Source of the DNA: Pseudomonadota bacterium
GTDB lineage: Bacteria; Pseudomonadota; Gammaproteobacteria; Xanthomonadales; Rhodanobacteraceae
Assembly (NCBI GenBank): GCA_021827205.1
Contig: JAKAWV010000021.1
Coordinates: 1 to 54,098, forward strand
Direction of reading: 5' to 3'
Length of the DNA: 54,098 nucleotides
The notes below the pieces were generated by a model. It saw nothing but the letters and a program-made list of their open reading frames with translations. It made no database searches and was not told where the DNA came from. This document shows positions 37,866 through 54,098 of the stretch, piece by piece. Position 1 is the first letter of the stretch; every line of letters begins with the position of its first letter. Both the position numbers and the translations under genes were made by a program.

Positions 37866-37950
37866 TCACGCCGCCCGCATCGCGGTGGTCGGCGGCACGC
37901 GCGCCGCGCGCAGCGCGGGACCCAGCACGGCGAGCTGGCCCAGCAGCCAC
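37866..37950 (-). repeat. Sharp identity tract shared with 42966-43050
   Basis: The 3' ends of permeases 11 and 7 differ at only two of 85 bases and then diverge abruptly on both DNA and protein level. This looks like a gene-conversion tract. Confidence 0.85.
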
Positions 37951-39074
37951 ATGGCCAGCGCGCCGAATGCCACGTACTGCAGCGGCAGACGCGGCTGAGC
38001 GAAGCGCTGCATCAGCAACACATTGAGGCCGATGGTGAGTGCCGCGCCCAGCGCCACGCCCATGCTGACGATGATCAAGTTCTCGGCCTGGAAATGGCGC
38101 AGGATCGCGCCGCGCGTGGCGCCCAGCGCGCGCCGCGTGCCGATGTGGCGCGTGCGCTGCTGCACCCAGAAACTGGCCAGGCCACCGACGCCCAGCGCCG
38201 TGACGATCAGCAGGATCGCGGTGATCGCCATGAGGATGCGGTTGATGGCAGAGGCGCCGCGGAACACCATTTGGCGGATCTGCGCCATCGTCATGACCCG
38301 CGATGTCACATGCCCGGGATTGGCTTTTTGCAGTGCCTTCGCGGCCAGCGGAAGCACGCGTTTCAGTTGTCCCGGCTGGCTGCGGATCAGATACAGGCCA
38401 CCAAAGTCCTGATTGCCGACCCTGGTTTCGAGCAGTATCGAGTCGCCATCCGAATTCCGGCCTGTAATCGAGCCACGGAGCTCTCGCATCACACCAACGA
38501 TGCGCACTCCACCGCCACCGTGTTGACCCAGATACAGCATGCGCCCAAGCGGGCTTTGCTGCGGGTACAAACGCTGCGCCAAAGCTTGCGTGATGAGCCC
38601 TGGATCAATCTTTGCATTGCTTGATGGAAGCTCATCTTCTCGTGGCAGGCGACCCGCAATCACCTGCACACCCAAGGTCTTTGCATAACCTTGCGCACCT
38701 TCGAAGAGGTAGGGTGCTGCGAGGCGCTTGTGCAGATCAGGGTCGGCATAGACAGGGTACGTACTCGCACCCGCAAACGGCACATCGCCAAAGCTGGCGG
38801 CCACCACGCCCGGCACCCGGTCGAGCAAATCAATGTTGCCTGCCGCCGTGCCCGGATTCGGCGTGCCGATCACGCCGATGCTCTGGATCACGCCGATGTC
38901 GCGCCCCATCACCCCGGTGCGTTCATGCTCCAGCCGCATGCTCGCATTCACGATGAACAGCAGATTGCCCAGCACCGCCATGGTCAGGGCGATCTCCAGC
39001 ACCAGCAGCGTGACCGCGGCCTTGTGCCGGCGCAGGGCGGAAAAAATCGGGCGCAGCGACGAGAAAGGTTTCAT
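37866..39074 (-). CDS. Permease 11, class B (FtsX/MacB_PCD)
   Basis: 402 aa, last gene of the array. N-terminal helix after MKPFSSLRPIFSALRRHKAA, periplasmic domain (about 45-280), then three helices with FWVQQRTRHIGTRRALGA. Its membrane half differs from the other class B members in the middle (RGAILRHFQAENLIIVSMGV, LMQRFAQPRLPLQYVAFG), yet the last 85 bases match permease 7 at 83 of 85 positions (37866-37950 against 42966-43050). The start overlaps permease 10's stop (ATGA, 39071-39074). Together with permease 10 it makes the last A-B pair. Confidence 0.9.
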   Translation of the reverse strand: MKPFSSLRPIFSALRRHKAAVTLLVLEIALTMAVLGNLLFIVNASMRLEHERTGVMGRDIGVIQSIGVIGTPNPGTAAGNIDLLDRVPGVVAASFGDVPFAGASTYPVYADPDLHKRLAAPYLFEGAQGYAKTLGVQVIAGRLPREDELPSSNAKIDPGLITQALAQRLYPQQSPLGRMLYLGQHGGGGVRIVGVMRELRGSITGRNSDGDSILLETRVGNQDFGGLYLIRSQPGQLKRVLPLAAKALQKANPGHVTSRVMTMAQIRQMVFRGASAINRILMAITAILLIVTALGVGGLASFWVQQRTRHIGTRRALGATRGAILRHFQAENLIIVSMGVALGAALTIGLNVLLMQRFAQPRLPLQYVAFGALAMWLLGQLAVLGPALRAARVPPTTAMRAA

Positions 39075-40381
39075 AGCGATTTCACCACCAGGGCGGGGGC
39101 GATGCGCGCGGCGCGCCACGCCGGCCAGATGCCGGCCAGCAGGGTCGCCACGGCGGCCAGCAGCAGCGCGTACACCAACAGCAGCGGACTGACCTGCACC
39201 GTGGCCGCGTAGCTCACCGGCTGCTGGCGGATCAGCCACAGGCCCAGCCATACCAGCGGCAGGCCGACGATGCCACCGAGCAGGCCGATCAGCGCCGACT
39301 CGATCACGCACTGCGCGAACACATCGCGCTTGCGCGCACCCAGCGCGCGACGCACGCCGATCTCGCCGCCGCGGCGCAGGAACTTGGCCAGCAGCAGGCC
39401 CACCGCGTTGAGCAGGCAGATCACGAACACGCCGAAGGCGATCCAGGTCTGCATGCGCACGATCACCGGCACCACGTGCTTGTAGTTCAGCCACTGCATC
39501 ACGTCGTCCAGGCGCACGTTGGGCGCGCGCTGGAACCGCCCCAGCGCATGCTGCTGCTGGCTGTAGCGCACCAGCAAGTCACGATAGGCGCGCACCTGCG
39601 CCGGGGTATTCAATTGCACCCAGTACTGCGCCCAGGTGCACTGCGCCGCCTTGGGGTTGTGGTTGCCGGCGCCGGGATTGTCGCCCCAGCAATCCATCGG
39701 CCCGTAGCCGTAGTCCTGCGGCAGCTCCAGCCAGGTGAAAAACGGCAGGTAGATCTGCGCGGCGGCGCCGTAGGCGCCATCGTCCAGATCCCAGAAATGC
39801 GGCTGCGGGTTCCAGGACTTGATCACGCCGATGATGCGGAACAGCTTGGTGGCGATGATCAGCTCGCGCCCCACGCTGTCGGCGCCGCCAAACAACCGAT
39901 CGTTGAGTTTTTGCGAGATCACCACCACCTGCGCGCGGCGCGTGTCGTCCTGTGCGCTCCACGCCGCGCCGTACTGGAACGGCACGTCGAACATCGGAAA
40001 GAATCCGTGCGTGGTCGCGCGCGTGGTTTCCATGCGCAGCGGGCTGCCCGCCACCGTGCTGCGCAACGGCAGCCAGTTGGCACTCATCAGCGCGCGCCGG
40101 CTGGCCTGATCGAGGTGATACAGGTTCAGCGCATCGATGTAGGTGAGGTTGTCAGGCGGTGCGCGGCGCGCGCCCGGCAGGTCGGCTGGGCGCGGATCGA
40201 TCTGCGGATGGAGCACCTCATCGCCGCGTTGCGGCAGCGGATTGCCGTCCAGATTGTGCAGCACCGTGAACATGCTCATCGCCACGCCGATGCCCAGCGC
40301 CACCGCCAGCACCATCAATGCCGTGAGCACCGTGTTGCGGCGGAATCCGCGCAAGGCCAACTTGAATGCATAACCGAACAT
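39071..40381 (-). CDS. Permease 10, class A (FtsX/MacB_PCD)
   Basis: 436 aa. Starts MFGYAFKLALRGFRRNTVLT, helix 1 ALMVLAVALGIGVAMSMF, large periplasmic domain with the class A pair MDCWGDNPG...AAQCTWAQYWVQLN, then three helices with FLRRGGEIGVRRALGARKRD and the ending PAWRAARIAPALVVK. AGGAG lies 7 bases before the ATG; the frame is open seven codons further. Overlaps the next gene's start by ATGA. Closest in motif to permease 8 (LPQRGDEVLHPQIDP). Confidence 0.9.
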   Translation of the reverse strand: MFGYAFKLALRGFRRNTVLTALMVLAVALGIGVAMSMFTVLHNLDGNPLPQRGDEVLHPQIDPRPADLPGARRAPPDNLTYIDALNLYHLDQASRRALMSANWLPLRSTVAGSPLRMETTRATTHGFFPMFDVPFQYGAAWSAQDDTRRAQVVVISQKLNDRLFGGADSVGRELIIATKLFRIIGVIKSWNPQPHFWDLDDGAYGAAAQIYLPFFTWLELPQDYGYGPMDCWGDNPGAGNHNPKAAQCTWAQYWVQLNTPAQVRAYRDLLVRYSQQQHALGRFQRAPNVRLDDVMQWLNYKHVVPVIVRMQTWIAFGVFVICLLNAVGLLLAKFLRRGGEIGVRRALGARKRDVFAQCVIESALIGLLGGIVGLPLVWLGLWLIRQQPVSYAATVQVSPLLLVYALLLAAVATLLAGIWPAWRAARIAPALVVKSL

Positions 40382-40391
40382 GATGGACTCC

Positions 40392-41609
40392 TTATGCCGC
40401 ACGCATCGCCACCGTCGGCGCCACGCGCGCGGCGCGCAGCGCGGGGCCCAGCACGGCGAGTTGACCCAGACCCCACAGCAGCAGTGCGCCCAGCGGCAGA
40501 TACATCACTGGCAACCGCGGCACCGCGTAGTGCGCCATCAGCCAGACGTTGATGCCGATCGCGGCGGCACAGCCCAGCGCGATGCCGGCTGTCGCCAGCA
40601 GCAAGTTCTCGGTCTGGAAGTAGCGCAGGATGTCCACGCGGCGCGCGCCCAGCGCACGGCGCACACCGATCTGCCGCGTGCGCTGCTGCACCCAGAAGCC
40701 GGTCAGCCCCATGATGCCGAGCCCAGTCACCAGCATCAGCGCCACGATCACACCGCCCAGCAGACCGATCATGATGCGGTTGTTCTTCTCGAACGCGCGG
40801 CGGAGATCGGTGATGCTGCCGCTGCTGTCGCGGTCGACGACCAGCCTTGGGTCGATGCGCTGGATGGCGGCGTAGGCGGCATGCAGCACCGCCTGCCGGC
40901 GCGCCGGGTCCGTCCTCAGGACGTAGCTGCCGGTCTGCGGTGCGCCAAGCTCCGCCGGCAGGAATAGCGAGTCGTAGGCGTCCTCGATGCCCGCGTAGCC
41001 CGGATCGGGTCGCAGCACCGAAGCAGCGATACCGATGATCTGATAGTGGTGTTCCTTGCCTAACCAGATCGACCGACCCAGCGCGTTCCGCCCGGGCCAC
41101 AACAGCGTTGCGAGTTTCTGGCTGATGATCACTCCACCGGAAGGCGGCATCACTTTGAAGCCCCGGTATGCGCTCGAATCGAACTCTCGCCCCGCGATCA
41201 GGCGTACGCCCATGACATGCAAATAGCCCGGCGCGCCATAGTAGAAATCGGCGACACGCCCGAAGTGCGTTCCCGCCGAGTCCAGATCGAAGCCGGCCGT
41301 CCCTTCGCGCGGGCCGAAGGGCACCGTATTCACCGCTGCCGCGGACAGTACCCCGGGAATCCTTTGCAACGCATCGAGGATGGTGGCGTAGATCGCACCG
41401 ACATCAGGCCGATCGGTACCCGCAGTGTTGACGTAAACGAGATGGCTGCCGTCGTCAAGTCCGGTGCGCAACTGTAGTCTGGCCACGCGCTGCATGATCA
41501 GCGCGAACGCATTGCTGACCACGGCAAAGGTCAGCGCGATTTCCAGTACGAGGATCACCACCGAGGCGCGGTGGCGGGTGAGCGCGGAAACCATGGGACG
41601 GATGCTCAT
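40392..41609 (-). CDS. Permease 9, class B (FtsX/MacB_PCD)
   Basis: 405 aa. Starts MSIRPMVSALTRHRASVVIL; GAGG precedes the ATG by 5 bases. The periplasmic domain (LQLRTGLDDGSHLVYVNTAG, FYYGAPGYLHVMGVRLIAGR) is unlike its neighbours, whereas the last 104 residues (from GLTGFWVQQRTRQIGVRRAL) almost equal those of permeases 2, 4, 5 and 7. Helices 2-4 and the AMRAA ending are intact. Pairs with permease 8 (gap of 7 bases). Confidence 0.9.
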   Translation of the reverse strand: MSIRPMVSALTRHRASVVILVLEIALTFAVVSNAFALIMQRVARLQLRTGLDDGSHLVYVNTAGTDRPDVGAIYATILDALQRIPGVLSAAAVNTVPFGPREGTAGFDLDSAGTHFGRVADFYYGAPGYLHVMGVRLIAGREFDSSAYRGFKVMPPSGGVIISQKLATLLWPGRNALGRSIWLGKEHHYQIIGIAASVLRPDPGYAGIEDAYDSLFLPAELGAPQTGSYVLRTDPARRQAVLHAAYAAIQRIDPRLVVDRDSSGSITDLRRAFEKNNRIMIGLLGGVIVALMLVTGLGIMGLTGFWVQQRTRQIGVRRALGARRVDILRYFQTENLLLATAGIALGCAAAIGINVWLMAHYAVPRLPVMYLPLGALLLWGLGQLAVLGPALRAARVAPTVAMRAA

Positions 41610-41616
41610 GGCGACC

Positions 41617-42963
41617 TCACGGGGCTTTGATCTGCTGCGCGGGGGAGATGCGGCTGGCGCGCCAGGCCGGCCACAGGCCAAAGGCCACGCTGGCCAGCAG
41701 TGCAAGGCCCACCGTCAGCGCCAGCATGCGCGGGTCGGGCTGCGCGAGGTCGGCGTAGGCCACTGGCTGCTGGCGCACCATCCACAGCCCGGCCACCGCC
41801 AGCAGCAAGCCCAGCAGGCCACCCAGCAGTCCGATCACCAGCGCCTCCCACAGGCATTGCGCGAAGATCGCTTTCCTCGATGCACCCAGCGCGCGGCGCA
41901 CACCGTATTCGCTGGATCGCCGCAGCAACTTGGTCAGCAGCAGTCCCGCGACATTGACCAGGCAAATGGCCAGAAACGCCCAGGCGAGGATGGTCTGCAT
42001 GTGCACGTCGCTGGGAACGACGCGGTTGTAGGCCAGCCACTGCATCAGGTCCATCAGGCGCACGTTGGTCGGATGCGTGAAGCGCCCCAGTGCGCGCTGC
42101 TGGTCAGAGTAGTCGACCAGGTAACGATGGTAGGCCTGCGCCTTGGCGGCCGTATCCAGCTGCACCCACAGCGAGACCCAGTCGCAGGGCTGGTTCTCGA
42201 GGTTGACCGTATCCGTGGGAATTTTCCAGCAGGTGAACACCTGGAAGTGCCCGGCGTTGAGTTGCATGCCGGTGAAGAACGGTAGATAGACTTGTGGTGC
42301 TTTGACGTAGAACCCGGACGTGTCGCCATGGGAATAGCGGCCTGCCAAGACTTCGAAGAACATCGGCGCGGGCCGCCAGTGCTTCAGCACGCCGACGATG
42401 CGCACCGCGCCATGCGCCAACGGCAGCATGTGCCCCACGCTGTTGCCGCCGCCGAACAGGCGGTCGTTGAGCGACTTGGAGATGACCGCCACCTGCGCCC
42501 GCGCGGTGTCGTCCGCCACCGACCACGGTCCGCCGTACTGAAACGGCACGTCGAACATCGGAAAGAAATCGTGCGTGGTCTCCAGCGACGGCGCATCGAA
42601 CGCTGTGGTTCCGGCGCCCGTAGGCAGAATCTTGAGCGGACTGTTGGTCATCACCGCCTGGCGATCGGCGCGCTCCGACTTCCACAGGTCCACGGCCGAG
42701 GTGTAGTCCATCAGGTCCGGCGGATCGCGCCTGACAAAGGTGCTGGTTTCCGGGTCTACCTGCGGGTAGAAGATGCGGCTGCTCTTCTGCGGCAGCGGAT
42801 CGCCGGACAGCAGGTGGTAAACCGTCAGCGTGGTGATGCAGGCGCCGATGCCGAGTCCGATCGCCAGCACCATCAGTGCGCTGATCCAGGGCGTGCGCGC
42901 CACGCTGCGCAGCGCCAGTCGCAGGTAGTAGCCGTGGATATCGCGCATGTTCGCCAGCCTCAT
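41617..42963 (-). CDS. Permease 8, class A (FtsX/MacB_PCD)
   Basis: 448 aa, or 443 from ATG 42948 (MRDIHGYYLRLALRS), which has GAGG 9 bases upstream. Helix 1 WISALMVLAIGLGIGACITT; class A cysteines FTCWKIPTD...ENQPCDWVSLWVQLD; membrane part LLRRSSEYGVRRALGASRKA; end PAWRASRISPAQQIK. Shares SGDPLPQKSSRIFYPQVDP with other class A members. It begins just after the permease 7 stop. Confidence 0.9.
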   Translation of the reverse strand: MRLANMRDIHGYYLRLALRSVARTPWISALMVLAIGLGIGACITTLTVYHLLSGDPLPQKSSRIFYPQVDPETSTFVRRDPPDLMDYTSAVDLWKSERADRQAVMTNSPLKILPTGAGTTAFDAPSLETTHDFFPMFDVPFQYGGPWSVADDTARAQVAVISKSLNDRLFGGGNSVGHMLPLAHGAVRIVGVLKHWRPAPMFFEVLAGRYSHGDTSGFYVKAPQVYLPFFTGMQLNAGHFQVFTCWKIPTDTVNLENQPCDWVSLWVQLDTAAKAQAYHRYLVDYSDQQRALGRFTHPTNVRLMDLMQWLAYNRVVPSDVHMQTILAWAFLAICLVNVAGLLLTKLLRRSSEYGVRRALGASRKAIFAQCLWEALVIGLLGGLLGLLLAVAGLWMVRQQPVAYADLAQPDPRMLALTVGLALLASVAFGLWPAWRASRISPAQQIKAP

Positions 42964-42965
42964 GC

Positions 42966-43280
42966 TCACGCCGCCCGCATCGCGGTGGTCGGCGGCACGC
43001 GCGCCGCGCGCAGCGCGGGGCCCAGCACGGCGAGCTGGCCGAGCAGCCACAACGCCACGGCGCCGATGGGCAGATAGACGATCGGCAGTCGCGGCACCGC
43101 GTAGTGCGCCATCAGCCACACATTGATGCCGATCGCCGCCGCGCAGCCCAACGCGATGCCGGCCGTCGCCAGCAGCAAGTTCTCGGTCTGGAAGTAGCGC
43201 AGGATATCCACGCGGCGCGCGCCCAGCGCGCGGCGCACGCCGATCTGGCGCGTGCGCTGCTGCACCCAGAAGCCGGTCAG
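42966..43280 (-). repeat. Class B 3' homology tract (also at 49934, 47366, 46099, 40392)
   Basis: About 312 bases encoding helices 2-4 recur with high DNA identity at 49934-50248, 47366-47680, 46099-46413 and 40392-40706. For example GCACCGCGTAGTGCGCCATC followed by the same next 15-40 bases is present in all five. The periplasmic parts of the same genes do not align at DNA level. Confidence 0.8.
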
Positions 43281-44204
43281 CCCCATGATGCCGATCAGAG
43301 TGACGATGAGCACCACGAGGGTGACGCTGGACAGCAGCCAGACCGCCGCGCGACGCCCATGAAAGAAGGCTGCACGCGCAGCTTCAAAGGTTGCTATGCG
43401 GGGACGCGAATGCGCGGTCGCATCGTTGGACGGAAACGCGCGACGCAGTGCAACGGGTATGGACTTGAGTACCGCTGGCAGTGCGTTCGGATCGGCACGC
43501 ACAGCGTATTCGATGGCAGGAAAATCGATGAACCGGCCCGGGACGAGTAGCACGTTGCCCACGGCCGGCTGGTTCGCGCTGTTGAGATCATTGCGGAGCA
43601 AGTGTCCAACGACGCCGACTACGGTGTGGTAGCTCGGGTGCTTGCTGCCAACGCGGACTTGTTGTCCAAGCGGATTGGTGTCTGGAAACAGCCGTTGCGC
43701 TATCGCATGCGTGAGGATGACTGGCGCGTCAGTGTTCAGGCCTCCTTCGTTCTGCATCGTTGCATCGACCAGTTCGCTGGGCGAAAAGTTGCGACCTGCA
43801 ACCAGTTTCAAGCCCAACGCATTGACAAGATTGCTTCCAACATAGATCGCTGCATTGGCCTTGTGCTTGCCATTCGAAGAGAAAATCGAATCCGAGTCAT
43901 ACCAACCGCTCACCATAGGCAATGGAGACCCGGCACTTACCGCGATGACACCTGGAATGGCCCGGAGCTCGGCATACCCGGTCTGAATTTGTGCACCTGA
44001 CCAGCCCTTGCCAGTTGTGTTGTAGATATGGCTGATCAGGATGACTTGGTTGGCCGCGACCCCATCGTGCACGAGCAGCGGCGCCAGGCGTTGCTGCAAC
44101 AGCGACAGCGCATTGCACAGGATGGCCGTGGCCAGCGCGATCTGCATGACCACCAGCGTTGGCATCAGACGATGGCGGCGAAAGGTCTTGAGCATGGGTT
44201 GCAT
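42966..44204 (-). CDS. Permease 7, class B (FtsX/MacB_PCD)
   Basis: 412 aa. Starts MQPMLKTFRRHRLMPTLVV with GAGGGG 8 bases before. Its periplasmic region (HIYNTTGKGWSGAQIQTGYA, SIFSSNGKHKANAAIYVGSN) is distinctive and encoded by DNA poor in G+C for this genome: 43861-43920 has 29 G+C of 60, while 43081-43140 in the membrane part has 40 of 60. The last 104 residues equal the class B consensus. Pairs with permease 6. Confidence 0.9.
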   Translation of the reverse strand: MQPMLKTFRRHRLMPTLVVMQIALATAILCNALSLLQQRLAPLLVHDGVAANQVILISHIYNTTGKGWSGAQIQTGYAELRAIPGVIAVSAGSPLPMVSGWYDSDSIFSSNGKHKANAAIYVGSNLVNALGLKLVAGRNFSPSELVDATMQNEGGLNTDAPVILTHAIAQRLFPDTNPLGQQVRVGSKHPSYHTVVGVVGHLLRNDLNSANQPAVGNVLLVPGRFIDFPAIEYAVRADPNALPAVLKSIPVALRRAFPSNDATAHSRPRIATFEAARAAFFHGRRAAVWLLSSVTLVVLIVTLIGIMGLTGFWVQQRTRQIGVRRALGARRVDILRYFQTENLLLATAGIALGCAAAIGINVWLMAHYAVPRLPIVYLPIGAVALWLLGQLAVLGPALRAARVPPTTAMRAA

Positions 44205-44215: not shown

Positions 44216-45538
44216 TCAGTTGGTTTTGACTTGCAGCGCAGGCGACAGCGTGCTTGCGCGCCAGGCCGGCAGCACGCCGACGATCAAACCCACGCCCACG
44301 GACACCGCGAACAGGGCGATGAACATGGGCAGGTTCAGATGCGCCACGCTGGCGTAGCCGATCTGCTGCTGGCGCACCAGCCACAGGCCGAACAGGGTCA
44401 GCGGCACCGCCAGCGCACCGCCCAGCAGGCTGACGCCACCGGCCTCGATCAGGTGTTGCGCGAACACGCCGGCACGCGTCGCGCCCAGCGTGCGCCGCAC
44501 CGCCACCTCGTGGCTGCCGCGCAGAAACCGCGCCAGCAGCAGGCCGGTGACGTTGACCATGCACAGAGCCAGAAACGCCAGCGACAGCCACAGGTTGATG
44601 GGCGCACTGCTGGGCACGCCGTTATTTTGCGCAACCCAGGCATTCATGCCGTGCAACGCAACCTTGGGCGCACGCTGGAAGCGGCCCGCCGCATGTTGCT
44701 GCATGGCGTAATCAAGCAGGTAACGGCGATAGGCCACCACCTGCTTCGGCGTGTCCAATTGCACCCAGGTTTCCAGCCAGTAGCAGTCTCCGACCTTGGA
44801 GCTACCAAACGCATACGCATGCGATGAGTGCTCACAAATTCCCGGGTGAATCGGCCCAATGGAAGCCGCAAGCGCAGATTGCGTCGGCAAAAAGATCGGA
44901 AACTGCGTGCCGGGCAGGAAATAAAGCTGCTCAAGATCAAAAAACTGGCGCCGGTACCTCCAGTTGGCCATGACTCCAATCACGCGGAACACATGCCCAT
45001 TAAGGCGCAGGCTGCGCCCCACGCCATCGGCCACGCCAAACAACTTGCGGCTGAGATGCTCGTCGATGATGGCCACGGGAGCACGCGCCACACTCTCCGC
45101 TGCGGTCCATGTGCGGCCATGACGCAATGGAATGCCAAACATCGCGATTGCCTGCGCCGAGGTCAGCCAGGTGAGTACGCTCGAATCGTGTGCGCCACCG
45201 GTGATGGTCGAGGCATTCACGTCCGCGATCGCCAGATACGTCTGCCGCACCGCCTTGCGTGCATCCACCAGCGCCTGCGCATCACGCAGCTTGAGCAAGG
45301 TGGGCGACGATGAAACCGCGCTGTGATCGCCCGGCTTGGGCAGCGGCTGCGAATCCATCGACACCAGATACAAATGCCGACTGCCATGCGCGATCGGATC
45401 GGCCATCAGCGCATTCAGAATCGTGTATGCGGTCATGCAGGATGCGATGCCGATGGCCATCGTCACGATGATCAACAGCGTCTGCGTGCGATGGCGCAGC
45501 AGTCCGCGCAGCGCCAGTTGCAGGTAATAACGCTTCAT
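44216..45538 (-). CDS. Permease 6, class A, divergent (FtsX/MacB_PCD)
   Basis: 440 aa. Starts MKRYYLQLALRGLLRHRTQT, helix 1 LLIIVTMAIGIASCMTAYTI. It is the most divergent class A member: it lacks SGDPLP and the YPQ-DP motif (ADPIAHGSRHLYLVSMDSQP) but keeps the cysteine pair (GICEHSSHAY...GDCYWLETWVQLD), FLRGSHEVAVRRTLGATRAG and the end PAWRASTLSPALQVK. First gene after the PDZ-like gene and a 94-base gap, the widest in the array, so a separate promoter is possible. Central DNA is relatively A+T-rich. Confidence 0.88.
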   Translation of the reverse strand: MKRYYLQLALRGLLRHRTQTLLIIVTMAIGIASCMTAYTILNALMADPIAHGSRHLYLVSMDSQPLPKPGDHSAVSSSPTLLKLRDAQALVDARKAVRQTYLAIADVNASTITGGAHDSSVLTWLTSAQAIAMFGIPLRHGRTWTAAESVARAPVAIIDEHLSRKLFGVADGVGRSLRLNGHVFRVIGVMANWRYRRQFFDLEQLYFLPGTQFPIFLPTQSALAASIGPIHPGICEHSSHAYAFGSSKVGDCYWLETWVQLDTPKQVVAYRRYLLDYAMQQHAAGRFQRAPKVALHGMNAWVAQNNGVPSSAPINLWLSLAFLALCMVNVTGLLLARFLRGSHEVAVRRTLGATRAGVFAQHLIEAGGVSLLGGALAVPLTLFGLWLVRQQQIGYASVAHLNLPMFIALFAVSVGVGLIVGVLPAWRASTLSPALQVKTN

Positions 45539-46098: not shown

Positions 46099-47331
46099 TC
46101 AGGCGGTTCGCATCGCCACCGTCGGCGCCACGCGCGCGGCGCGCAGCGCGGGGCCCAGCACGGCGAGTTGACCCAGACCCCACAGCAGCAGCGCGCCCAG
46201 CGGCAGGTAGATCACCGGCAGCCGCGGCACCGCGTAGTGCGCCATCAGCCACACGTTGATGCCGATCGCCGCCGCGCAGCCCAGCACGATGCCGGCCGTG
46301 GCCAGCAGAAAGTTCTCGGTCTGGAAATAGCGCAGGATGTCCACGCGGCGCGCGCCCAAGGCACGCCGCACGCCGATCTGCCGTGTGCGCTGCTGCACCC
46401 AGAAGCTGGCCAGGCCGACGATGCCGATCGCGGTGACGCCGAGCAGCGCGATCACCGTGGACAGCAGCAGCCAGGCCATGGAACGGTCATCGCGAAAATA
46501 GCGTTGTCGCATGTGCGTGAACGATTCCTGCGCGTTCAGCGTTTCGGTCGGATGCATGGCCTGGAGTTTCGCGGCACCCGCCTTGAGCACGCGTGCACAC
46601 TCGGCCGGCCGGCAGCGCAGGGCATACCACGCATTCAAGTCCGGACCGGCGCGAAACGGCGAGATGACGCCGTAACAGTTCGCCGGGTCATGCGCATCGG
46701 CGCTGATGTAGGGCCGAATGATGTTGGAGACGACGCCGACCACGAGCACCGGCGTCTCGCCCATGTACATGACCTTGCCCACGGCGCTCGCATGCGGCCA
46801 GAGCCGCTGTGCGAATGCCTGGGTGATCAGCGCCTGTCGGGCATTCACGAATGCCTTGAAAACGTCCTTGGGGCTGAGATCGCTGTAATCGCTCGGCTGA
46901 AACGCACTGCCCTGGATCACCCGGATGCCGAGCGTCTGCAGCAGCTCAGGTCCGCCAAAAAACACCGGCACCTGCACGCCATCCGAGAACACGCGCATCG
47001 GTCGCAGCGAGTAATCAAGAGCCCACTGCGAACTACTCAAGGGCAAGGTATTGATGGCGCTGGCCGATTCGACACCGGGAATCGCCCGCAGCGCGGCCAG
47101 ATCGGTTTGCGCCGAGGCGACCGAGCCATTTTGCTTGCCCGCCGTGGCGAGTTGCAGCAGGACCAGATTGCGTTCATCGATCCCGGAAGGCAGATCGACA
47201 CGCTGCAGGCGGCCGATCACCAGGTACACGGCATTGCTGACGATGGCGAAGGCCAGCGCGATTTCCAGCACGATCAGGAACGCGGCGATCTTGTGCCGGC
47301 GCAGCGCGGCAAGGATCGGCCGCACGCTCAC
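46099..47331 (-). CDS. Permease 5, class B, unpaired (FtsX/MacB_PCD)
   Basis: 410 aa from GTG 47331 (GGAG 7 bases upstream). N-terminus RPILAALRRHKIAAFLIVLE is nearly that of permease 2, as is SGIDERNLVLLQL; so the two are recent paralogues. The periplasmic domain carries ANCYGVISPFRAGPDLNAWY and RCRPAECARV, with three cysteines not seen in permease 2. It follows another class B gene (permease 4) rather than a class A gene, breaking the alternation. Ends AMRTA. Confidence 0.9.
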   Translation of the reverse strand: MSVRPILAALRRHKIAAFLIVLEIALAFAIVSNAVYLVIGRLQRVDLPSGIDERNLVLLQLATAGKQNGSVASAQTDLAALRAIPGVESASAINTLPLSSSQWALDYSLRPMRVFSDGVQVPVFFGGPELLQTLGIRVIQGSAFQPSDYSDLSPKDVFKAFVNARQALITQAFAQRLWPHASAVGKVMYMGETPVLVVGVVSNIIRPYISADAHDPANCYGVISPFRAGPDLNAWYALRCRPAECARVLKAGAAKLQAMHPTETLNAQESFTHMRQRYFRDDRSMAWLLLSTVIALLGVTAIGIVGLASFWVQQRTRQIGVRRALGARRVDILRYFQTENFLLATAGIVLGCAAAIGINVWLMAHYAVPRLPVIYLPLGALLLWGLGQLAVLGPALRAARVAPTVAMRTA

Positions 47332-47365: not shown

Positions 47366-48595
47366 TCATGCCGCCCGCATGGCGGTGGTCGGCGCCACGC
47401 GCGCCGCGCGCAGCGCCGGGCCCAGCACGGCGAGCTGGCCGAGCAGCCATAGCGTCACCGCGCCGATCGGCAGATAAATGATCGGCAACCGCGGTACCGC
47501 GTAGTGCGCCATCAGCCAGACGTTGATGCCAATCGCGGCGGCACAGCCCAGCGCGATGCCCGCCGTCGCCAGCAGGAAGTTCTCGGTCTGGAAATAGCGC
47601 AGGATGTCCACGCGGCGCGCGCCCAGCGCGCGGCGCACGCCGATCTGGCGCGTGCGCTGCTGCACCCAGAAGCTGGCCAGGCCAGCAATGCCGAAGGCCG
47701 TGGTCAACAGCAGCGCGGCGATCACCCCGACAAGGATGCCGGCCATGGCGCGATCGTTCTGGAAGTAGGCGTGGCGGATCTGTTCAAACGTGCGGTGCTT
47801 CAGCAGCACGCGGTTGGGATCGATGCGCTTGAGCGTGGCCACCGCGGCCTTCAGCACGCGCTCGCGGTCCTGCGGCGCGCAGCGGATGATGTAGCCTGCG
47901 GCCTGCTGCAGGCTGATACGTATCGGAAGCAGGATGCTGTAGTCGGCCCCAATGCTGGGCACCTCCGGACGCAACAGGTTCGTAATTACACCGATCACAC
48001 GGAACTGGATGCCGTTGCCCATGTAAAAGGTCTTGCCCAGCGCCGGTTGGCCTGGCCATAGCCGCTCGGCCAGCGCTTCCGTGACGATCACGATGTGTGG
48101 CAATTCTTTCTGGTTATCGGAATGCAGCGCCCTGACGACGGCACCGAAACCGAGGTATTCGCCAGGAGAAAATTTGCGGCCGGCGATCAGCCGCAACCCG
48201 AGCGTGCTGATGATGTTCTGTCCGAAATATTCCGCGACATGGACCGTATTCCACCTTTGCCGCGGGCCGAGCTTGATGCCGCCGTTCGAGGAACGGTCAG
48301 CGAACGGCAGCTGGTTGATCAGGGCGACATCACGCACGCCGGGAATCTGTCGCAGGGCAGCAATATCGACCTGTGCTCGCGCTTCGGCATCCGGCTCATT
48401 GCCGATATAGGCCATCTGCACCTGCACCAGCTGATGGTCTGCGACACCGCTGACGATGTCCATGCGCTGCAGCCGCTCGCGGATCAGGAACACCGCGTTG
48501 CTGACGATGGCGAAGGCCAGGGCGATCTCGAACACGATCAGGAGGGCTGCGATCCTGTGCCGCGACAGGCTGGCGATGATGGGACGGATGGCCAT
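47366..48595 (-). CDS. Permease 4, class B (FtsX/MacB_PCD)
   Basis: 409 aa from ATG 48595, with GAGGA 5 bases upstream; ATG 48607 overlaps permease 3's stop (ATGA) and adds MRTV. N-terminus MAIRPIIASLSRHRIAALLI; periplasmic domain SGVADHQLVQVQMAYIGNEP ... YFGQNIISTLGLRLIAGRKF; class B membrane part FWVQQRTRQIGVRRALGARR and AMRAA end. Pairs with permease 3. Confidence 0.9.
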   Translation of the reverse strand: MAIRPIIASLSRHRIAALLIVFEIALAFAIVSNAVFLIRERLQRMDIVSGVADHQLVQVQMAYIGNEPDAEARAQVDIAALRQIPGVRDVALINQLPFADRSSNGGIKLGPRQRWNTVHVAEYFGQNIISTLGLRLIAGRKFSPGEYLGFGAVVRALHSDNQKELPHIVIVTEALAERLWPGQPALGKTFYMGNGIQFRVIGVITNLLRPEVPSIGADYSILLPIRISLQQAAGYIIRCAPQDRERVLKAAVATLKRIDPNRVLLKHRTFEQIRHAYFQNDRAMAGILVGVIAALLLTTAFGIAGLASFWVQQRTRQIGVRRALGARRVDILRYFQTENFLLATAGIALGCAAAIGINVWLMAHYAVPRLPIIYLPIGAVTLWLLGQLAVLGPALRAARVAPTTAMRAA

Positions 48596-48603
48596 GACGG
48601 TCC

Positions 48604-49917
48604 TCATTGCGCTTTGAGTTGCAGCGCGGGCGGAATCAGGCACGCGCGCCACGCCGGCAAGGCGCCGGCCAGCAAGCTGCCCGCCAGCGCCAGCCCGAAT
48701 GTAGCCAGCAGCATGGTGGGGTCCAGATGCGCCAGCTTGGCGTAGTCGGAGGGCTGTTGCCGTACCGCCCAGAGTCCCAGCAGGGTCAGCAGGAGCCCGA
48801 GCACGCCACCCGCGAGGCCGACCAGACCGGATTCGATCAGCAGTTGCATGAAGATCGCCCGGCGCGATGCGCCCAGGGCCCTGCGCACGCCGATCTCGCC
48901 GCTGCGGCGCAGGAACTTGGCCAGCAGCAGGCCCACGGTGTTGACCAGGCACACCAGCAGGAAACCCAGCGCCAGCCAGGCCTGCATGCGCACGTCATCC
49001 GGCACCACCTGGTTGTAGGACAGCCACTGCATCAGGCTGCGCAGGCGCACGTTGGGCGGACGCTGGAAGCGCCCCAGCGACTTCTGCTGCGCCGAGTAAT
49101 TCACCAGGAACTGCCGGTAGGCCGCGACCTGGGCCGGGCTGTCCAGTTGCACCCAGAACTGCAGCCACACGCACGGCGCGGTATGTGCGGGCCGCGGGCC
49201 GCCACCGCCGTTGCCCCAGCAGTCGACGGGGCCATTGTGGTCCATCTTGATGTCCTGCGAGGTCGACAGCGGCAGGTACACGCCCTCGGGCTCGGCGTAG
49301 CTGCCGACGTACATGTCGTAGAAGTGCGGGCTGGGATGCCAGTCGCCCAGCACGCCGACCACGCGGAAGGCCGCGCCGTTGAGCCGCAGCACCTTGCCCA
49401 CGCTGTCGCCGCCGCCGAACACGCGCCGGTTCAGCGCGTCGCTGATCACCGCCACGCGAGCGCGCGAACTGTCGTCCGCTGCACCCCATGCATGGCCGTA
49501 GCGGAACGGCACGCCGAACATCGGAAAGAACTCCGCCGTGGTGTAGAGCGCATCCTCGAAGAACGGATCGACGCCGTTGCGGGTCGACTGCACGGCGACG
49601 GACCCGCCGGTCATCAATGCCTGCCGGTCGGCCCGATGCGCCTCCAACAGATTCATGCCGTCGGTCCACGTGACCTGCCCCATCGGTTCTTCGCCCGGGC
49701 GGTAGCTCAACGCATCACGTGGGTCGATCTGCGGGTAGTACAGGTCGCTGCTGCGCCCCGGCAGCGGATCGCCGGAGAGCACGTGCAGCACGGTCAGCGT
49801 GGTCATGCAGGTGCCGATACCCACCGCCAGCGCCAGCACCATCAGCGTGGTCAGCACCGGATTGCGCTGCAGCGCGCGCAGCGCGAGTTGCAGGTAATAG
49901 GCGTTTTGGCTGCTCAT
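48604..49917 (-). CDS. Permease 3, class A (FtsX/MacB_PCD)
   Basis: 437 aa. Starts MSSQNAYYLQLALRALQRNP with GAGGG 7 bases before. Helix 1 TLMVLALAVGIGTCMTTLTV; motif SGDPLPGRSSDLYYPQIDP shared with permease 1; class A cysteines VDCWGNGGGG...TAPCVWLQFWVQLD; membrane part FLRRSGEIGVRRALGASRRA; end PAWRACLIPPALQLK. Very similar to permease 1 throughout, so a recent duplicate. Confidence 0.9.
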   Translation of the reverse strand: MSSQNAYYLQLALRALQRNPVLTTLMVLALAVGIGTCMTTLTVLHVLSGDPLPGRSSDLYYPQIDPRDALSYRPGEEPMGQVTWTDGMNLLEAHRADRQALMTGGSVAVQSTRNGVDPFFEDALYTTAEFFPMFGVPFRYGHAWGAADDSSRARVAVISDALNRRVFGGGDSVGKVLRLNGAAFRVVGVLGDWHPSPHFYDMYVGSYAEPEGVYLPLSTSQDIKMDHNGPVDCWGNGGGGPRPAHTAPCVWLQFWVQLDSPAQVAAYRQFLVNYSAQQKSLGRFQRPPNVRLRSLMQWLSYNQVVPDDVRMQAWLALGFLLVCLVNTVGLLLAKFLRRSGEIGVRRALGASRRAIFMQLLIESGLVGLAGGVLGLLLTLLGLWAVRQQPSDYAKLAHLDPTMLLATFGLALAGSLLAGALPAWRACLIPPALQLKAQ

Positions 49918-49933
49918 CAGGAACCCTCTGTCT

Positions 49934-51160
49934 CTACGCCGCCCGCATCGCCACCGTCGGCGCCACGCGCGCCGCGCGTAGCGCCGGTCCCAGCACGGCG
50001 AGCTGGCCGAGCAGCCACAGCGCCACGGCACCGATCGGCAGATAAATGATCGGCAAGCGCGGCACCGCGTAGTGCGCCATCAGCCACACGTTGATGCCGA
50101 TCGCCGCCGCGCAGCCCAACGCGATGCCCGCCGTGGCCAGCAGGAAGTTCTCGGTCTGGAAGTAGCGCAGGATGTCGCGGCGGCGCGCGCCCAGCGCCCG
50201 GCGCACACCGATCTGCCGCGTGCGCTGCTGCACCCAGAAGCTGGCCAGGCCAACGATGCCGATGGCGGTGACGCCAAGCAGCGCAAGAATGGTGGACACC
50301 AGCAGCCAGGCCATGGCGCGGTCGTTGGCGAAGTACTCGCGGCGCATCTGCGACAGCGTGGCCTGTTTGGTGACGGTCTGCGTCGGGTGCATGGCCTGCA
50401 GCTTGGTCACTGCCGCCTTGAGCACGCGCTCGCGCGCGGCGGGCGCGGCGCGCAACACATACGAGGCGTCGAGATCGGGGCCGACGCGGAACGGCAGGAC
50501 GACCGCGTAGAAATTGCTGGGGTCGGTGCCCGAGTCACTCAACTGCGGGCGCACGATGTTGGACATCACGCCGACGATCTGGCCCTGACTTTTGTCCACA
50601 TACAGCAGTTTGCCGACCGCGTTCCCGCCGGGCCACAACTGCTCGGCGTAAGCCTTGCTCACGATCACCTGTGTGGGCTTGAAAAACGCGCTGAGCATGG
50701 TGGCCGGCGTCAGGTCGGTGTACTGGTCGCTGCTGAATCCGCGCCCGGCCAGAATCTTCACGCCCAGCGTCGGCAGCAGGTCGCGGCTGCCGAGGTAGAT
50801 GGTGGCCGGATAGCCCGTCGCGTCTTGCCCAGGCGTCTTGGTGAAATCCGAGTTCCAGGATGAGTTGGTGAACGGCAGCGAGTTGACCGCGCTGGCCGAT
50901 TGCACGCCGGGGATCGTGCGCAGCGCGGCCAGATCGGCCTCGGCCGATGGCACGCCCGCGTTGCCGGACGAGCTGATCTGCAGGGTGACCAGATCGCGCT
51001 CGTCGATGCCCGAGTGGATGTCCATGCGCTGCAGGCGCCCCATGACCAGGTACACGGCATTGCTGACGATGGCGAAGGCCAGCGCGATTTCCAGCACGAT
51101 CAGGAACGCGGCGATCTTGTGCCGGCGCAGCGCGGACAGGATGGGACGCGGCGTCATCAT
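49934..51160 (-). CDS. Permease 2, class B (FtsX/MacB_PCD)
   Basis: 408 aa. Starts MMTPRPILSALRRHKIAAFL with GAGG 6 bases before. Helix 1, then a periplasmic domain (SGIDERDLVTLQISSSGNAG, IYLGSRDLLPTLGVKILAGR), then the class B membrane part (GLASFWVQQRTRQIGVRRAL, PIIYLPIGAVALWLLGQL) and AMRAA end. Begins 8 bases after permease 1, its presumed partner. Confidence 0.92.
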   Translation of the reverse strand: MMTPRPILSALRRHKIAAFLIVLEIALAFAIVSNAVYLVMGRLQRMDIHSGIDERDLVTLQISSSGNAGVPSAEADLAALRTIPGVQSASAVNSLPFTNSSWNSDFTKTPGQDATGYPATIYLGSRDLLPTLGVKILAGRGFSSDQYTDLTPATMLSAFFKPTQVIVSKAYAEQLWPGGNAVGKLLYVDKSQGQIVGVMSNIVRPQLSDSGTDPSNFYAVVLPFRVGPDLDASYVLRAAPAARERVLKAAVTKLQAMHPTQTVTKQATLSQMRREYFANDRAMAWLLVSTILALLGVTAIGIVGLASFWVQQRTRQIGVRRALGARRRDILRYFQTENFLLATAGIALGCAAAIGINVWLMAHYAVPRLPIIYLPIGAVALWLLGQLAVLGPALRAARVAPTVAMRAA

Positions 51161-51168
51161 GGCGGGCC

Positions 51169-52470
51169 TCACGAGGATTTGAGTTGCAGCGCGGGCGCGA
51201 TCAGGCACGCGCGCCACGCCGGCAGCAGCCCGGCGACCAGGCTGGCCAGCAACGCCAGTGCCAGGGTGGCGACCAGCATCGCCGGTTGCAAATGCGCGAG
51301 GCTGGCGTAGTCGGACGGCTGCTGGCGCACCGCCCACAAGCCCAGCCAGGTCAGCAGCAGGCCGAGCAGCGCGCCGGCCGCACCGATCATGCCGGCCTCG
51401 ATCAGCAGTTGCGCGAAGATCGCCCGCCGCGAGGCGCCCAGCGCACGGCGCACGCCGATCTCCCCCGAACGGCGCAGGAACTTGGCCAGCAGCAGGCCCA
51501 CGGTGTTGACCACGCACACCAGCAAAAACCCCAGCGCCAGCCAGGCCTGCATGCGCACGTCCTCGGGCACGACGTGGTTGTACGCCAGCCACTGCATCAG
51601 GTCGTCCAGACGCACGTTGGGCTGGCGCTGGAAGCGCCCGGCGGCATGCTGCTGCGCGGAGTAGTCGGCCAGGAAGCGCCGGTAGGCGGCCGCGGCGCGG
51701 CGGCTGTCGAGCTGCACCCACATCTGGATGTAACCGCAGGGCGAGGTGTCCAGATTGCCGGTGGTCTGGCCATAGCAGTTGGTCGTACCGTTGACGCCCA
51801 GGTTCAGCGCGCGCGCGGTGTTGAAAGGAATGAACACGTCCTCGATCTGCCCGAAGCGCGAGGCGTTGAGGTCGTAGAAACGCGGCACCGGGCGCCAGTG
51901 CGCCAGCACGCCGACGATGCGGAAGCTGTGGCCACCGAAACCCAGCATGCGGCCGACGCTGTCGGCGCCGCCGAACAGCTTGCGGTCGAGCGACCGCGAG
52001 ATCACCGCCACGTGCGCGGCGCCGGCATCATCGGCCGCGGACCATGGCGCGCCGTAATGGAACGGCACCTCGAACATGCTGAAAAAGTCCCGCCCGGTCA
52101 GCCGCGAATTGACCACGAACGGATGCAGCGCCGAGCCCGCGGGCGGCTGCACCACGTCGCCGCCTTGGTACATCACCGCCGCGCGCGTGGCCTTACCCTG
52201 GTGCAGCAGGTTTTCGGCGTCGATGTAGGTGAGCAGGCCGGGCGGCTCCGGGTTGCCGTTGCTGCCGCGCGCCAGCGGCCGCGGATCGACCTGCGGGTAG
52301 TACAAGTGCGCACTGCGCCCCGGCAGCGGATCGCCGGAGAGCACGTGCAGCACGGTCAGCATGGTCATGCTGGCGCCGATGCCCACCGCCAGCGCCAGCA
52401 CCATCAGCGCGGTCAGCACCGGGCTGTTGCGCAGCGCGCGCAGGGCCAGACGCAGGTAGTAGGCACCCAT
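51169..52470 (-). CDS. Permease 1, class A (FtsX/MacB_PCD)
   Basis: 433 aa, first permease after the ATPase (3-base gap). Layout: short cytoplasmic start MGAYYLRLALRALRNS, helix 1 TALMVLALAVGIGASMTMLT, periplasmic MacB core domain of about 240 residues, then three helices that carry the FtsX domain (FLRRSGEIGVRRALGASRRA). Periplasmic Cys about 232 and 245 (NCYGQTTGN...SPCGYIQMWVQLD) are conserved in every class A protein of the array. MacB-type proteins do not carry substrates through the bilayer but use ATP to move a periplasmic stalk, expelling peptides, toxins or lipids. It has no fused ATPase domain. Confidence 0.92.
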   Translation of the reverse strand: MGAYYLRLALRALRNSPVLTALMVLALAVGIGASMTMLTVLHVLSGDPLPGRSAHLYYPQVDPRPLARGSNGNPEPPGLLTYIDAENLLHQGKATRAAVMYQGGDVVQPPAGSALHPFVVNSRLTGRDFFSMFEVPFHYGAPWSAADDAGAAHVAVISRSLDRKLFGGADSVGRMLGFGGHSFRIVGVLAHWRPVPRFYDLNASRFGQIEDVFIPFNTARALNLGVNGTTNCYGQTTGNLDTSPCGYIQMWVQLDSRRAAAAYRRFLADYSAQQHAAGRFQRQPNVRLDDLMQWLAYNHVVPEDVRMQAWLALGFLLVCVVNTVGLLLAKFLRRSGEIGVRRALGASRRAIFAQLLIEAGMIGAAGALLGLLLTWLGLWAVRQQPSDYASLAHLQPAMLVATLALALLASLVAGLLPAWRACLIAPALQLKSS

Positions 52471-52473
52471 GGC

Positions 52474-53208
52474 TCAACTCCGCGGCAGGCTGACATCGCC
52501 CGCGGTGCGCTCGCGCAGGCCGGGATGGAAGCGCGGCTCCTCGCTGACCCCGGTGGCCATGCCATCGACGATGTGCACGTTGCGCTGCGCGCGCGCGGCC
52601 AGCTCGGGATCGTGGGTGACCATGATGATGGTGGCGCCCTCGCGGTGGATTTCCTCGATCAGCTCCATCACCCCGCGCGCCATGGCGGTATCGAGGTTGC
52701 CGGTGGGCTCATCCGCGAGCAGCAGGCGTGGGCCGCCGGCCAGCGCGCGCGCGATGGCCACGCGCTGCTGCTGGCCGCCGGAGAGTTCAGCCGGGTAGTG
52801 CTTGAGGCGTGCCGACAGACCGACGCGCTCCAGCGCCGCCAGCGCGCGCTTGCGCCGCTCGCCGCCGCTCATGTGGCGGTAGTGCAGCGGCACCTCGACG
52901 TTGTCCAGCACGTTGAGGTCGGGGATCAGGTTGAAGGCCTGGAACACGAAACCGATCTTCTCGTTGCGCAGGCGCGAGCGCTGGTTGTCGTTCATGCCGT
53001 GCACGTTGACGTGGTCCAGCAGGTACTCGCCGCGGGTGAAATCCTCGAGCAGCCCGGCGATGGTCAGGAACGTGGTCTTGCCCGAGCCCGACGGCCCGGT
53101 GACGGCGACGAACTCGCCCTCGTCGACCTTGAGCGAGAAGCCGCGCAAGGCGTGGGTCTCGACGGTTTCGGTGCGGTACACCTTGGAAACTTCGCGCATC
53201 TCGAGCAT
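52474..53208 (-). CDS. ABC transporter ATPase, MacB/LolD type
   Basis: 244 aa with Walker A GPSGSGKT (38-45), Q-loop Gln90, signature LSGGQ (142-146), Walker B with Glu167 in LLLADEPTGNLD, and switch His199 in MVTHD. The FxxAFNLIPDLNVLDNVEVPL segment is typical of the MacB/LolD/FtsE class that drives FtsX-type permeases. MLEMREVSKVYRTE is taken as start. It is the only ATPase of the array in the window, so it presumably serves all eleven permeases. Gap of 3 bases to permease 1; a repeat-filled gap of 77 bases separates it from the adaptor. Confidence 0.95.
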   Translation of the reverse strand: MLEMREVSKVYRTETVETHALRGFSLKVDEGEFVAVTGPSGSGKTTFLTIAGLLEDFTRGEYLLDHVNVHGMNDNQRSRLRNEKIGFVFQAFNLIPDLNVLDNVEVPLHYRHMSGGERRKRALAALERVGLSARLKHYPAELSGGQQQRVAIARALAGGPRLLLADEPTGNLDTAMARGVMELIEEIHREGATIIMVTHDPELAARAQRNVHIVDGMATGVSEEPRFHPGLRERTAGDVSLPRS

Positions 53209-53230
53209 CACGTTCTCCGGGTTTGATGAA

Positions 53231-53280
53231 GCCCCTCGAGGGGCCGGGACGATCAAGCCCCTCTCCCGGCGGGAGAAGGG
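53231..53280. repeat. Palindromes between adaptor and ATPase genes
   Basis: A perfect 14-base palindrome GCCCCTCGAGGGGC (53231-53244) is followed by CCCCTCTCCC-GGC-GGGAGAAGGG (53258-53280, one mismatch), the same family as 28934-28954, 29047-29069 and the leuS insert. It may affect expression downstream of the adaptor. Confidence 0.8.
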
Positions 53281-53285
53281 ACTCT

Positions 53286-54098
53286 TCAGTGACTGATCAC
53301 CACGCGCGGCGCGTCGTGGAAACTCTCGGCGCCGGCGACCACCACGCGCTCGCCCGGCTGCAGCCCGGCGAGAATCTGCACGCGGTCGATGCTGCTGGGA
53401 CCGAGGCGCACCGGCGTGCGCACCGCGAGGTCGCCATGCAGCACATACACCGCGCTGCCGCCGTCGCTGTCCAGCGACGGGCCGCGCGCCACGGTGATGG
53501 CATCGGCCACGCGCTGCAGCACCACGCGCACGCTCAGGCGCTGGTTCTGCCGCAGCCCGGCCGGGCGCGCGCTGGCGAAGCGCACGCGCGCCGCCACTTC
53601 GCCACCGACCACCTCGGGCGAAATCGCCCCGACGACGCCCGGCCAGCGCTGGCCGTCGCCGCTGATCTCGGCGTGCATGCCCGGCGCCAGATCGCGCGCG
53701 AAGCTCTCCGGCACCTTGATCTCGACTTCCAGCGCGGACAAATCCACCACGCTCAGCAGCGCCGCGTCCTTGGCCACCTTGGTGCGATCGGCCACCGCCA
53801 ATTGCCCGACCTGGCCGGTGACCGGCGCGCGCAGGGTCAGCGCATCGACCTGACGCTGCAAGTCGGCCACGATCAGTTGCTGGCGCTCGGCGGCGAGGCG
53901 CTTGCTGCGAATCTCGAACGCGACCATGCGATTGTCCAGACCCTGATCCTGCTCGGCGTGGCGCAGGCTGATCTGCGCCTTGTCCAGCGCGTCCTGCGCG
54001 CGCAGCACGTTGATCTCGGGCACCGCGCCCATCTTGTAGGCGCGCGTGTTGCGATCGAGATCGGTCTGCGCGGATTTGAGGTCGATGCGCGCGTCCTC
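53286..54098 (-). CDS. Periplasmic adaptor (HlyD/MacA type), 5' end outside window
   Basis: The last 270 residues are visible; the frame is open to the window edge, so the N-terminus and membrane anchor lie beyond 54098. Visible are a helical hairpin (DLKSAQTDLDRNTRAYKMGA through FEIRSKRLAAERQQLIVADL), the second half of a lipoyl-like domain (LRAPVTGQVGQLAVADRTKV), a beta-barrel domain and a membrane-proximal end (LQPGERVVVAGAESF). This is the adaptor that links MacB-type pumps to an outer-membrane channel. No outer-membrane factor gene is in the window; one could lie upstream. Confidence 0.9.
   Translation of the reverse strand, partial: EDARIDLKSAQTDLDRNTRAYKMGAVPEINVLRAQDALDKAQISLRHAEQDQGLDNRMVAFEIRSKRLAAERQQLIVADLQRQVDALTLRAPVTGQVGQLAVADRTKVAKDAALLSVVDLSALEVEIKVPESFARDLAPGMHAEISGDGQRWPGVVGAISPEVVGGEVAARVRFASARPAGLRQNQRLSVRVVLQRVADAITVARGPSLDSDGGSAVYVLHGDLAVRTPVRLGPSSIDRVQILAGLQPGERVVVAGAESFHDAPRVVISH

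Follow-up and report, generated by a model that had tools for sequence, protein, structure and literature searches.

A row of paired MacB-type permeases beside one ATPase gene recurs across the Xanthomonadales

Introduction

In transporters of the MacB type, as far as we know, the ATPase works with a single kind of permease dimer, either a homodimer or a heterodimer. What, then, could be the use of eleven permease genes lined up behind a single ATPase gene? Such a row occupies one end of contig JAKAWV010000021.1 of a bacterium of the Rhodanobacteraceae (Gammaproteobacteria, Xanthomonadales; assembly GCA_021827205.1). The window, by which we mean the whole stretch analysed, is this entire contig of 54098 bases, within a 3.04 Mb draft genome of 43 contigs. 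An original prediction, made from the letters of the window, described the row correctly but stopped short: it missed the sigma-54 regulator, the kinase, the kinship with ADOP permeases and an order-wide spread with larger arrays. We found that the row belongs to a module made of an adaptor, an ATPase, n pairs of permeases of classes A and B, a regulator and a kinase, which is present across the Xanthomonadales with n from 1 to 12. We read it as a MacB-like (type VII, mechanotransmission) ATP-binding cassette (ABC) system with exchangeable A-B membrane heads, and give this reading a probability of about 60%.

Results

The adaptor, the one ATPase and the eleven permeases (five A and six B) all lie on the minus strand, and the permease frames are intact, with zero internal stops in all 11. 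The permease order from the right end of the window, A B A B B, then a small PDZ-like gene, then A B A B A B, is the one originally proposed, and so are the distances between A starts, 2553, 2575 and 2582 bases at simple repeat units. The gaps had been put at mostly 0-34 bases, which is broadly right: measured, they range from -4 to 34 bases, with an exception of 94 bases before A3. The adaptor lacks its 5' part because the window is a complete contig that ends inside this gene. In the ATPase, the Walker A, signature, Walker B and H-loop look intact by eye against what we take to be their motif patterns. Since the same layout recurs in many genera, the gene row is not a product of chance. Read from the right end, the features are:

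53286..54098, minus strand: HlyD/MacA-type periplasmic adaptor, C-terminal 270 amino acids, 5' part lost at the contig end (HlyD_3 and HlyD_D23 over cut-off)
52474..53208, minus strand: ABC ATPase, single motor of the row (Pfam ABC_tran)
51169..52470, minus strand: permease A1, pair 1, resembling the N half of ADOP (MacB_PCD and FtsX; structure model)
49934..51160, minus strand: permease B1, pair 1, resembling the C half of ADOP (MacB_PCD and FtsX; structure model)
48604..49917, minus strand: permease A2, pair 2 (MacB_PCD; tree)
47366..48607, minus strand: permease B2, pair 2 (frame and tree; MacB_PCD under cut-off)
46099..47331, minus strand: permease B3, solitary B, closest to B1 of relative G005 (frame and tree)
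45633..46070, minus strand: small PDZ-like protein with a proline-rich tail (PDZ match of 21.8 bits, below the cut-off of 27)
44216..45538, minus strand: permease A3, pair 3 (MacB_PCD and FtsX; tree)
42966..44204, minus strand: permease B4, partner of A3 (frame and tree)
41617..42963, minus strand: permease A4, pair 4 (MacB_PCD; tree)
40392..41609, minus strand: permease B5, assigned to A4 by position, its C-terminal part homogenised with those of B1-B4 (frame and tree)
39071..40381, minus strand: permease A5, pair 5 (MacB_PCD; tree)
37866..39074, minus strand: permease B6, partner of A5, which it overlaps by 4 bases (FtsX only; tree)
37038..37862, minus strand: DUF2884 protein, start uncertain (37.6 bits, cut-off 30.6)
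35599..36939, minus strand: sigma-54-dependent response regulator with receiver, AAA+ and Fis-type helix-turn-helix domains (start picked by eye; the mechanical open reading frame reaches 37167)
33982..35355, minus strand: histidine kinase with two predicted transmembrane helices, a very short loop, and HAMP-like and PAS domains (sequence scan)

Is this row peculiar to one genome? A search with an alignment of B gave matches at E <= 0.001 in the window genome and in all of 40 relatives, ADOP permeases among them, and the strong matches stood about 2.6 kb apart in rows, that is, in arrays. The loci fetched from the relatives read adaptor, ATPase and (A-B)n, with n from 1 to 7, mostly followed by regulator and kinase; the multi-permease clusters that had been suspected in related genomes do exist. 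An A match at E <= 1e-50 is present in 188 of the 195 genomes of the family (the best eight A candidates per genome were scored, and a count of eight stands for at least eight). Among the named genomes that carry the module are those of Dyella, Rhodanobacter, Frateuria, Oleiagrimonas, Fulvimonas, Lysobacter, Luteimonas, Pseudoxanthomonas, Stenotrophomonas and Xanthomonas. Their 78 loci come from the best 80 of 331 relatives, and long arrays are incomplete in them because at most 10 kb was taken on each side. We could judge 49 of the 78, the others having no adaptor or ATPase in the stretch or no readable 3' end, and counted one pair in 20 loci, four in 15, five in 5, six in 4 and another number in 5. 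The largest arrays have 12 pairs (genome G195), 11 (G198) and 9 (G199 and G147), and every one of them has a single adaptor and a single set of regulator and kinase. Another stretch (G193:C44:64763-117292) holds nine A genes twice, in mirror image and with identical scores, and is probably an assembly palindrome. Across the class, 140 genomes (best twelve candidates scored in each) gave three matches at E <= 1e-80, in the window genome, in one of the same order and in one of another family; the module is rare outside the Xanthomonadales order.

How many motors serve these pairs? Exactly one array-type ATPase (>400 bits) was found in 14 of the 16 genomes searched, including one with 17 A genes (G104) and one with 12 (G098). 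A-B pairs also lie scattered outside the arrays, and an array-type ATPase or adaptor was near none of the 20 that we inspected in stretches of 10-11 kb (all those of G098, G104, G189 and G183, the main array of the last being placed from A positions only). One scattered pair (L201) has weak kinase and regulator matches nearby. A shared motor is best supported because of this single ATPase and of these motorless pairs, and the sharing of one motor by exchangeable A-B heterodimers, proposed from the window, gains indirect support from gene content. Alternatively, the pairs might be independent transporters borrowing different ATPases, the array being a storage arrangement instead of a shared-motor machine. 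Other ABC ATPases are plentiful (67-103 candidates per genome at a first look), among them one of 306 bits that belongs to a second, fused module in the window genome. Yet the tight gene row with one ATPase, the single close ATPase of most genomes and the motorless scattered pairs all speak for sharing, and we consider independent transporters unlikely. In G199, a one-contig genome with nine pairs, there is no unbroken array-type ATPase frame: the gene (C1 near 1066600, L166) consists of two overlapping frames, by either sequencing error or loss.

If heads are exchangeable, what is a head? The trees, built from 74 proteins of each class after one B fragment shorter than 300 residues had been excluded, are largely congruent pair by pair. 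By the A tree, four of the five window pairs cluster with other genera, pair 1 clustering only within its own genus. The identities of the periplasmic parts of A and B correlate with r=0.745, whereas 500 within-genome shuffles gave 0.200 on average and 0.340 at most, and the best partner coincides 554 times out of 807, with 189.8 expected (72 pairs; two A rows without fetched partner and the solitary B rows were dropped). A and B passed our filter in equal numbers in the loci of named genomes, 260 each. The A-B pair, which had been taken as the unit from the spacing of A starts, is supported as a heritable unit by these sequence comparisons, because trees match pair by pair, most pair types are common to several genera, identities correlate and natural fusions of A with B exist.

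The array could also be a neutral tandem duplication with decaying copies, as the presence of one solitary B in the window and the homogenised C-terminal parts of B1-B5 might suggest. This is highly improbable. Among 57 pairs from multi-pair genomes, no A and no B had its nearest periplasmic part within its own genome (0 of 57 each; C-terminal part: 2 of 57 for A and 6 of 57 for B), so that the pair repertoire is old and not made of recent local copies. The frames are all intact, and 10 of the 11 window permeases are under purifying selection, with ratios of nonsynonymous to synonymous rates (dN/dS) of 0.10-0.51 by NG86 (15 comparisons, B5 outside) and of 0.061-0.315 by YN00 in 12 of the 15. 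Mutated pairs, named in the original prediction as a possible weakness, are thus unlikely. Recent tandem duplication as the origin of the array was likewise rejected, given these periplasmic matches and the trees.

The two ends of the B proteins have diverged very differently. The last ~100 codons of B1-B5 are 81-95% identical in DNA, against periplasmic parts that are mostly 35-60% identical (up to about 70% for B1-B3), and exchange between copies therefore probably blurs the B tree. Window B1 is closest to B1 of relative G011 and solitary B3 to B1 of G005; one pair may possibly have been replaced or recombined around B1/B3. Solitary B genes occur in several places (46099-47331 in the window, and loci L104, L106, L117, L125, L137, L141 and L147), so that B may also act without its own A, unless a divergent A was missed, since array pair counts use score thresholds below which such an A could fall. 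They would fit a different architecture, in which several pairs assemble simultaneously into a mixed complex around the adaptor ring, as would genes that stand in one tight row and may be co-produced. We find such a complex very unlikely, as one-pair loci carry the same module and the solved MacB and Lol relatives have one permease dimer per ATPase dimer.

The permeases belong to the MacB family in sequence and predicted structure. MacB_PCD is over cut-off in 9 of the 11 window permeases, B2 and B6 being below, and a Pfam scan of four of them matched A1, B1 and A3 to both MacB_PCD and FtsX, and B6 to FtsX alone. The models of A1 and B1 have four transmembrane helices each, with a ~200-residue periplasmic domain between the first and the second, and match the folds of MacB, LolCDE and FtsX (B1 was searched with Foldseek, A1 compared by a second aligner alone). 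Among solved structures, A and B come closest to MacB and MacB-like entries, and the modelled fold of A1 and B1 is that of MacB. The ADOP model TIGR03434 divides between the classes: A aligns to its positions 5-401 (N half) and B to about 410-802 (C half), with 134.9-199.8 bits for each of the six window permeases scanned out of eleven, short of the cut-off of 622.3.

A second module in the same genome joins these halves. On contig C30 (L170:4791-17020, about 24.8-37.0 kb) stand an adaptor, an ATPase, three fused A.B permeases, a sigma-54 regulator and a kinase. The fused proteins, of ~820 residues each, match ADOP over its full length (625.4, 485.2 and 524.1 bits, the first only being over cut-off); hence the same module layout also exists with A and B in one chain. 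One of the 20 scattered pairs (L200) is a single A.B frame as well. Apart from this module, contig C13 of the window genome (L171 and L172, 108-129.7 kb) carries four ADOP-size permease frames of 831-901 codons, with no adaptor or ATPase match in the 21.7 kb fetched around them. The 'orphan' in the ADOP name implies that ATPase and adaptor are usually not adjacent, and these frames are candidates for true orphan ADOPs.

Who controls the module? A sigma-54 regulator lies downstream in 48 of the 49 judged loci of named genomes and on the same strand in 18 of the 27 fetched relative loci that have adaptor and ATPase. Its companion kinases were examined by a hydropathy scan. Of 44 from named genomes, one without recognised H-box was excluded, and 40 of the other 43 show two transmembrane helices joined by 3-34 residues; in 17 further relative loci the loops measure about 7-35 residues. 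From the two helices and the short loop we conclude that array kinases have no periplasmic sensor domain of their own. The kinase of the fused module is alike, by eye. COG0577 permeases are enriched under sigma-54 in Gammaproteobacteria, according to a published regulon analysis (PMC12316311).

These traits recall the Gram-positive Bce modules, which share with the array a permease with a large extracytoplasmic domain and a locus containing a regulator and a kinase that has no sensor domain of its own; a kinase with two transmembrane helices and a short loop beside the transporter is found in both. The Bce regulator is of a different class than the sigma-54 type, and Bce has no tandem array. 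The likeness raises the possibility that the pairs are a sensor repertoire first and a pump second, detecting compounds and signalling to an intramembrane-type kinase. The conserved regulator and the architecture of the array and fused-module kinases fit this idea. So does the account of BceS in PMC5985334, in which this kinase is unable to sense alone and depends on BceB and active BceA; PMC10314905 describes a complex between Bce transporter and kinase. On the other hand, an adaptor belongs to the module whereas BceAB has none, and BceB has ten transmembrane helices (both from PMC5985334) against four in the A1 and B1 models. We regard sensing as the primary role as possible, with the odds against it.

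The genes between the last permease and the regulator give a hint on cargo. A DUF885 protein, which we take to be peptidase-like, is found in 17 of 32 such gaps in the loci of named genomes (e.g. L154:12705-14582). Scans of single loci gave an S33-type hydrolase, a YkuD-type protein, a DUF4440 protein, a PDZ protein and a further divergent permease, one locus each. Because of the DUF885, S33-type and YkuD-type neighbours, our guess is that periplasmic peptides or peptide-like compounds are transported. No recurrent short precursor peptide was recognised among the neighbour frames, which were clustered from either flank and from the gap that precedes the regulator, and no dedicated search was made.

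Discussion

Our preferred reading, exchangeable heads on one motor, would work as follows. The ATPase dimer would drive one A-B permease heterodimer at a time, and A-B pairs with different periplasmic domains would compete for the same motor and adaptor. The HlyD/MacA-type adaptor would pass the periplasmic product on, presumably to a TolC-type channel encoded elsewhere. The sigma-54 regulator and the kinase without its own periplasmic sensor would control the operon, the signal to the kinase most likely coming from the transporter. The cargo may be peptides or similar compounds of the periplasm, for defence or export. We infer the heterodimer, the exchange of heads, the TolC partner, the coupling to the kinase and the nature of the cargo from gene content, alignments and models.

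Several observations weigh against parts of this scheme. Genome G024 holds two array-type ATPases, and about 1.5 kb upstream of one of the scattered pairs (L191) lies an ABC frame of 63 bits. A ~300-bit ATPase of the fused-module type is present in 11 of the 16 genomes and could serve scattered pairs, although G098, with six such pairs, has none at that cut-off. In the B tree, window B5 departs from the grouping of A4, and B2 stands beside, not inside, the group of the A2 relatives. Neighbouring genes of one class also break the pairing, with 7 B-B neighbours against 0 A-A in the loci of named genomes, and thus solitary B genes. A same-strand regulator was not seen in 9 of the 27 relative loci. 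In G002 and G006 the sequence stops inside the array, and in G034 and G039 only 2.0 and 3.8 kb are left to the contig end, but G020, G027, G031 and G035 have >=7 kb of downstream sequence and no regulator, and the regulator match of G005 is weaker (249 bits) and on the opposite strand. Three of the 43 kinases have a single predicted helix. The search for -24/-12 sites near adaptor and regulator, anchored at stop-to-stop frame edges and not at true starts, gave no support when the best site was compared with 700-base pieces of the same locus: only the adaptors of G036 and G035 reach 8/12 (control fractions of 0.062 and 0.036), and the other 44 of 46 rows score 5-7 (control fractions >=0.143). 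A peptide cargo is a guess drawn from neighbouring genes and family names. Finally, no TolC gene was among the genes identified in the operon, the rest of the genome not having been searched for one.

How new is the layout? MacB is a homodimer, and LolCDE consists of one separate ATPase and two different four-helix permeases. The array shares with MacAB-TolC the four-helix permease with a large periplasmic domain, the ATPase and the HlyD/MacA-type adaptor. It differs by its two permease classes in pairs, by up to 12 pairs per row, by the sigma-54 two-component system and by a separate ATPase, the latter being fused to the permease in MacB as described in PMC5985334. The array ATPase is LolD/MacB-like, with DarD as its best NCBIfam match (241.4 bits, the cut-off of 375 not being reached). 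DarBCD uses one permease, DarB, a long one (777-position model), and the array has several permease pairs instead. Compared with ADOP, the array splits the two halves into two genes and places them beside an ATPase and an adaptor. The array permease models match the folds of LolCDE and YbbAP, the latter having a long permease of two MacB-like halves; both have one permease pair and no adaptor, array or regulator. Group II ECF importers offer a parallel in organisation, with one energising module for many substrate-specific parts, some encoded elsewhere, in importers of unrelated fold that lack an adaptor. No description of an array of A-B permeases on one ATPase was found in the literature searched, which mostly did not cover subscription journals and preprints. 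The original prediction, too, knew of no described counterpart. One published operon is a candidate, and MacB-type ABC transport with many heterodimeric heads per motor, if this is what the genes encode, would be a layout for which we found no publication.

That operon contains dssA. PMC11928319 describes dssA as a permease of an ABC transporter, encoded in an operon of 17 genes in Rhodanobacter R179, a root commensal. Its insertion and in-frame deletion mutants are partly impaired in suppressing the inhibition of root growth by flg22, and the paper gives dssA as conserved in Xanthomonadales and rare elsewhere. The count of 17 would also result from a module that has six pairs together with a single gap gene, the regulator and the kinase. 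In the Rhodanobacter locus L140, the six pairs stand with an adaptor and an ATPase, a DUF885 gene occupies the gap and a regulator is present, while a kinase would fall beyond the stretch. The phyletic pattern of dssA agrees with our class survey. Likened by gene count and phyletic pattern, dssA is a candidate for a member of the module, and we lean towards accepting it. If it is one, the module would be tied to a phenotype measured on plant roots, in an order whose bacteria are plant-associated.

A bolder version of the exchangeable-head reading is tentative, and as a whole we think it less likely than not. It pictures a repertoire in Gram-negative bacteria, where a single mechanotransmission motor and a single adaptor would be shared among as many as about 17 alternative receptor-pump heads of A-B type in a genome, from the array and from the scattered motorless pairs, each head for another periplasmic peptide. 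Motor occupancy would be reported to the intramembrane-type kinase, which would switch on the whole array via sigma-54, and in plant-associated species the system would be the dssA immune-modulation transporter.

The natural variation of the module, which has from 1 to 12 pairs, comes split or fused and is joined by scattered pairs, allows a direct test of head exchange on type VII ABC motors, and could tell the motor-facing part of the permease from the cargo-facing one. The contrast between a homogenised C-terminal part of B and periplasmic parts that diverge is a pointer to these contacts.

Other features of the locus

In part of the loci of named genomes, glm genes border the module: glmS lies upstream in 21 of 49 readable loci and glmU downstream in 19 of 28 (e.g. 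at the ends of L154 and L137). The small PDZ protein with a proline-rich tail was found in 11 of 109 loci scanned, at varied array positions (e.g. L116:5294-5803, L153:12439-12951), one of the 11 matches being a larger protein on the other strand. Among the 31 relative loci fetched, those of G011 and G005 also have the DUF2884 protein. In the window, short dispersed repeats of the GATTCCCGCCTGCGCGGGAATGACG type form inverted pairs at 35368-35549, in the gap between kinase and regulator, and at 37616-37839, in the 5' part of the DUF2884 frame.

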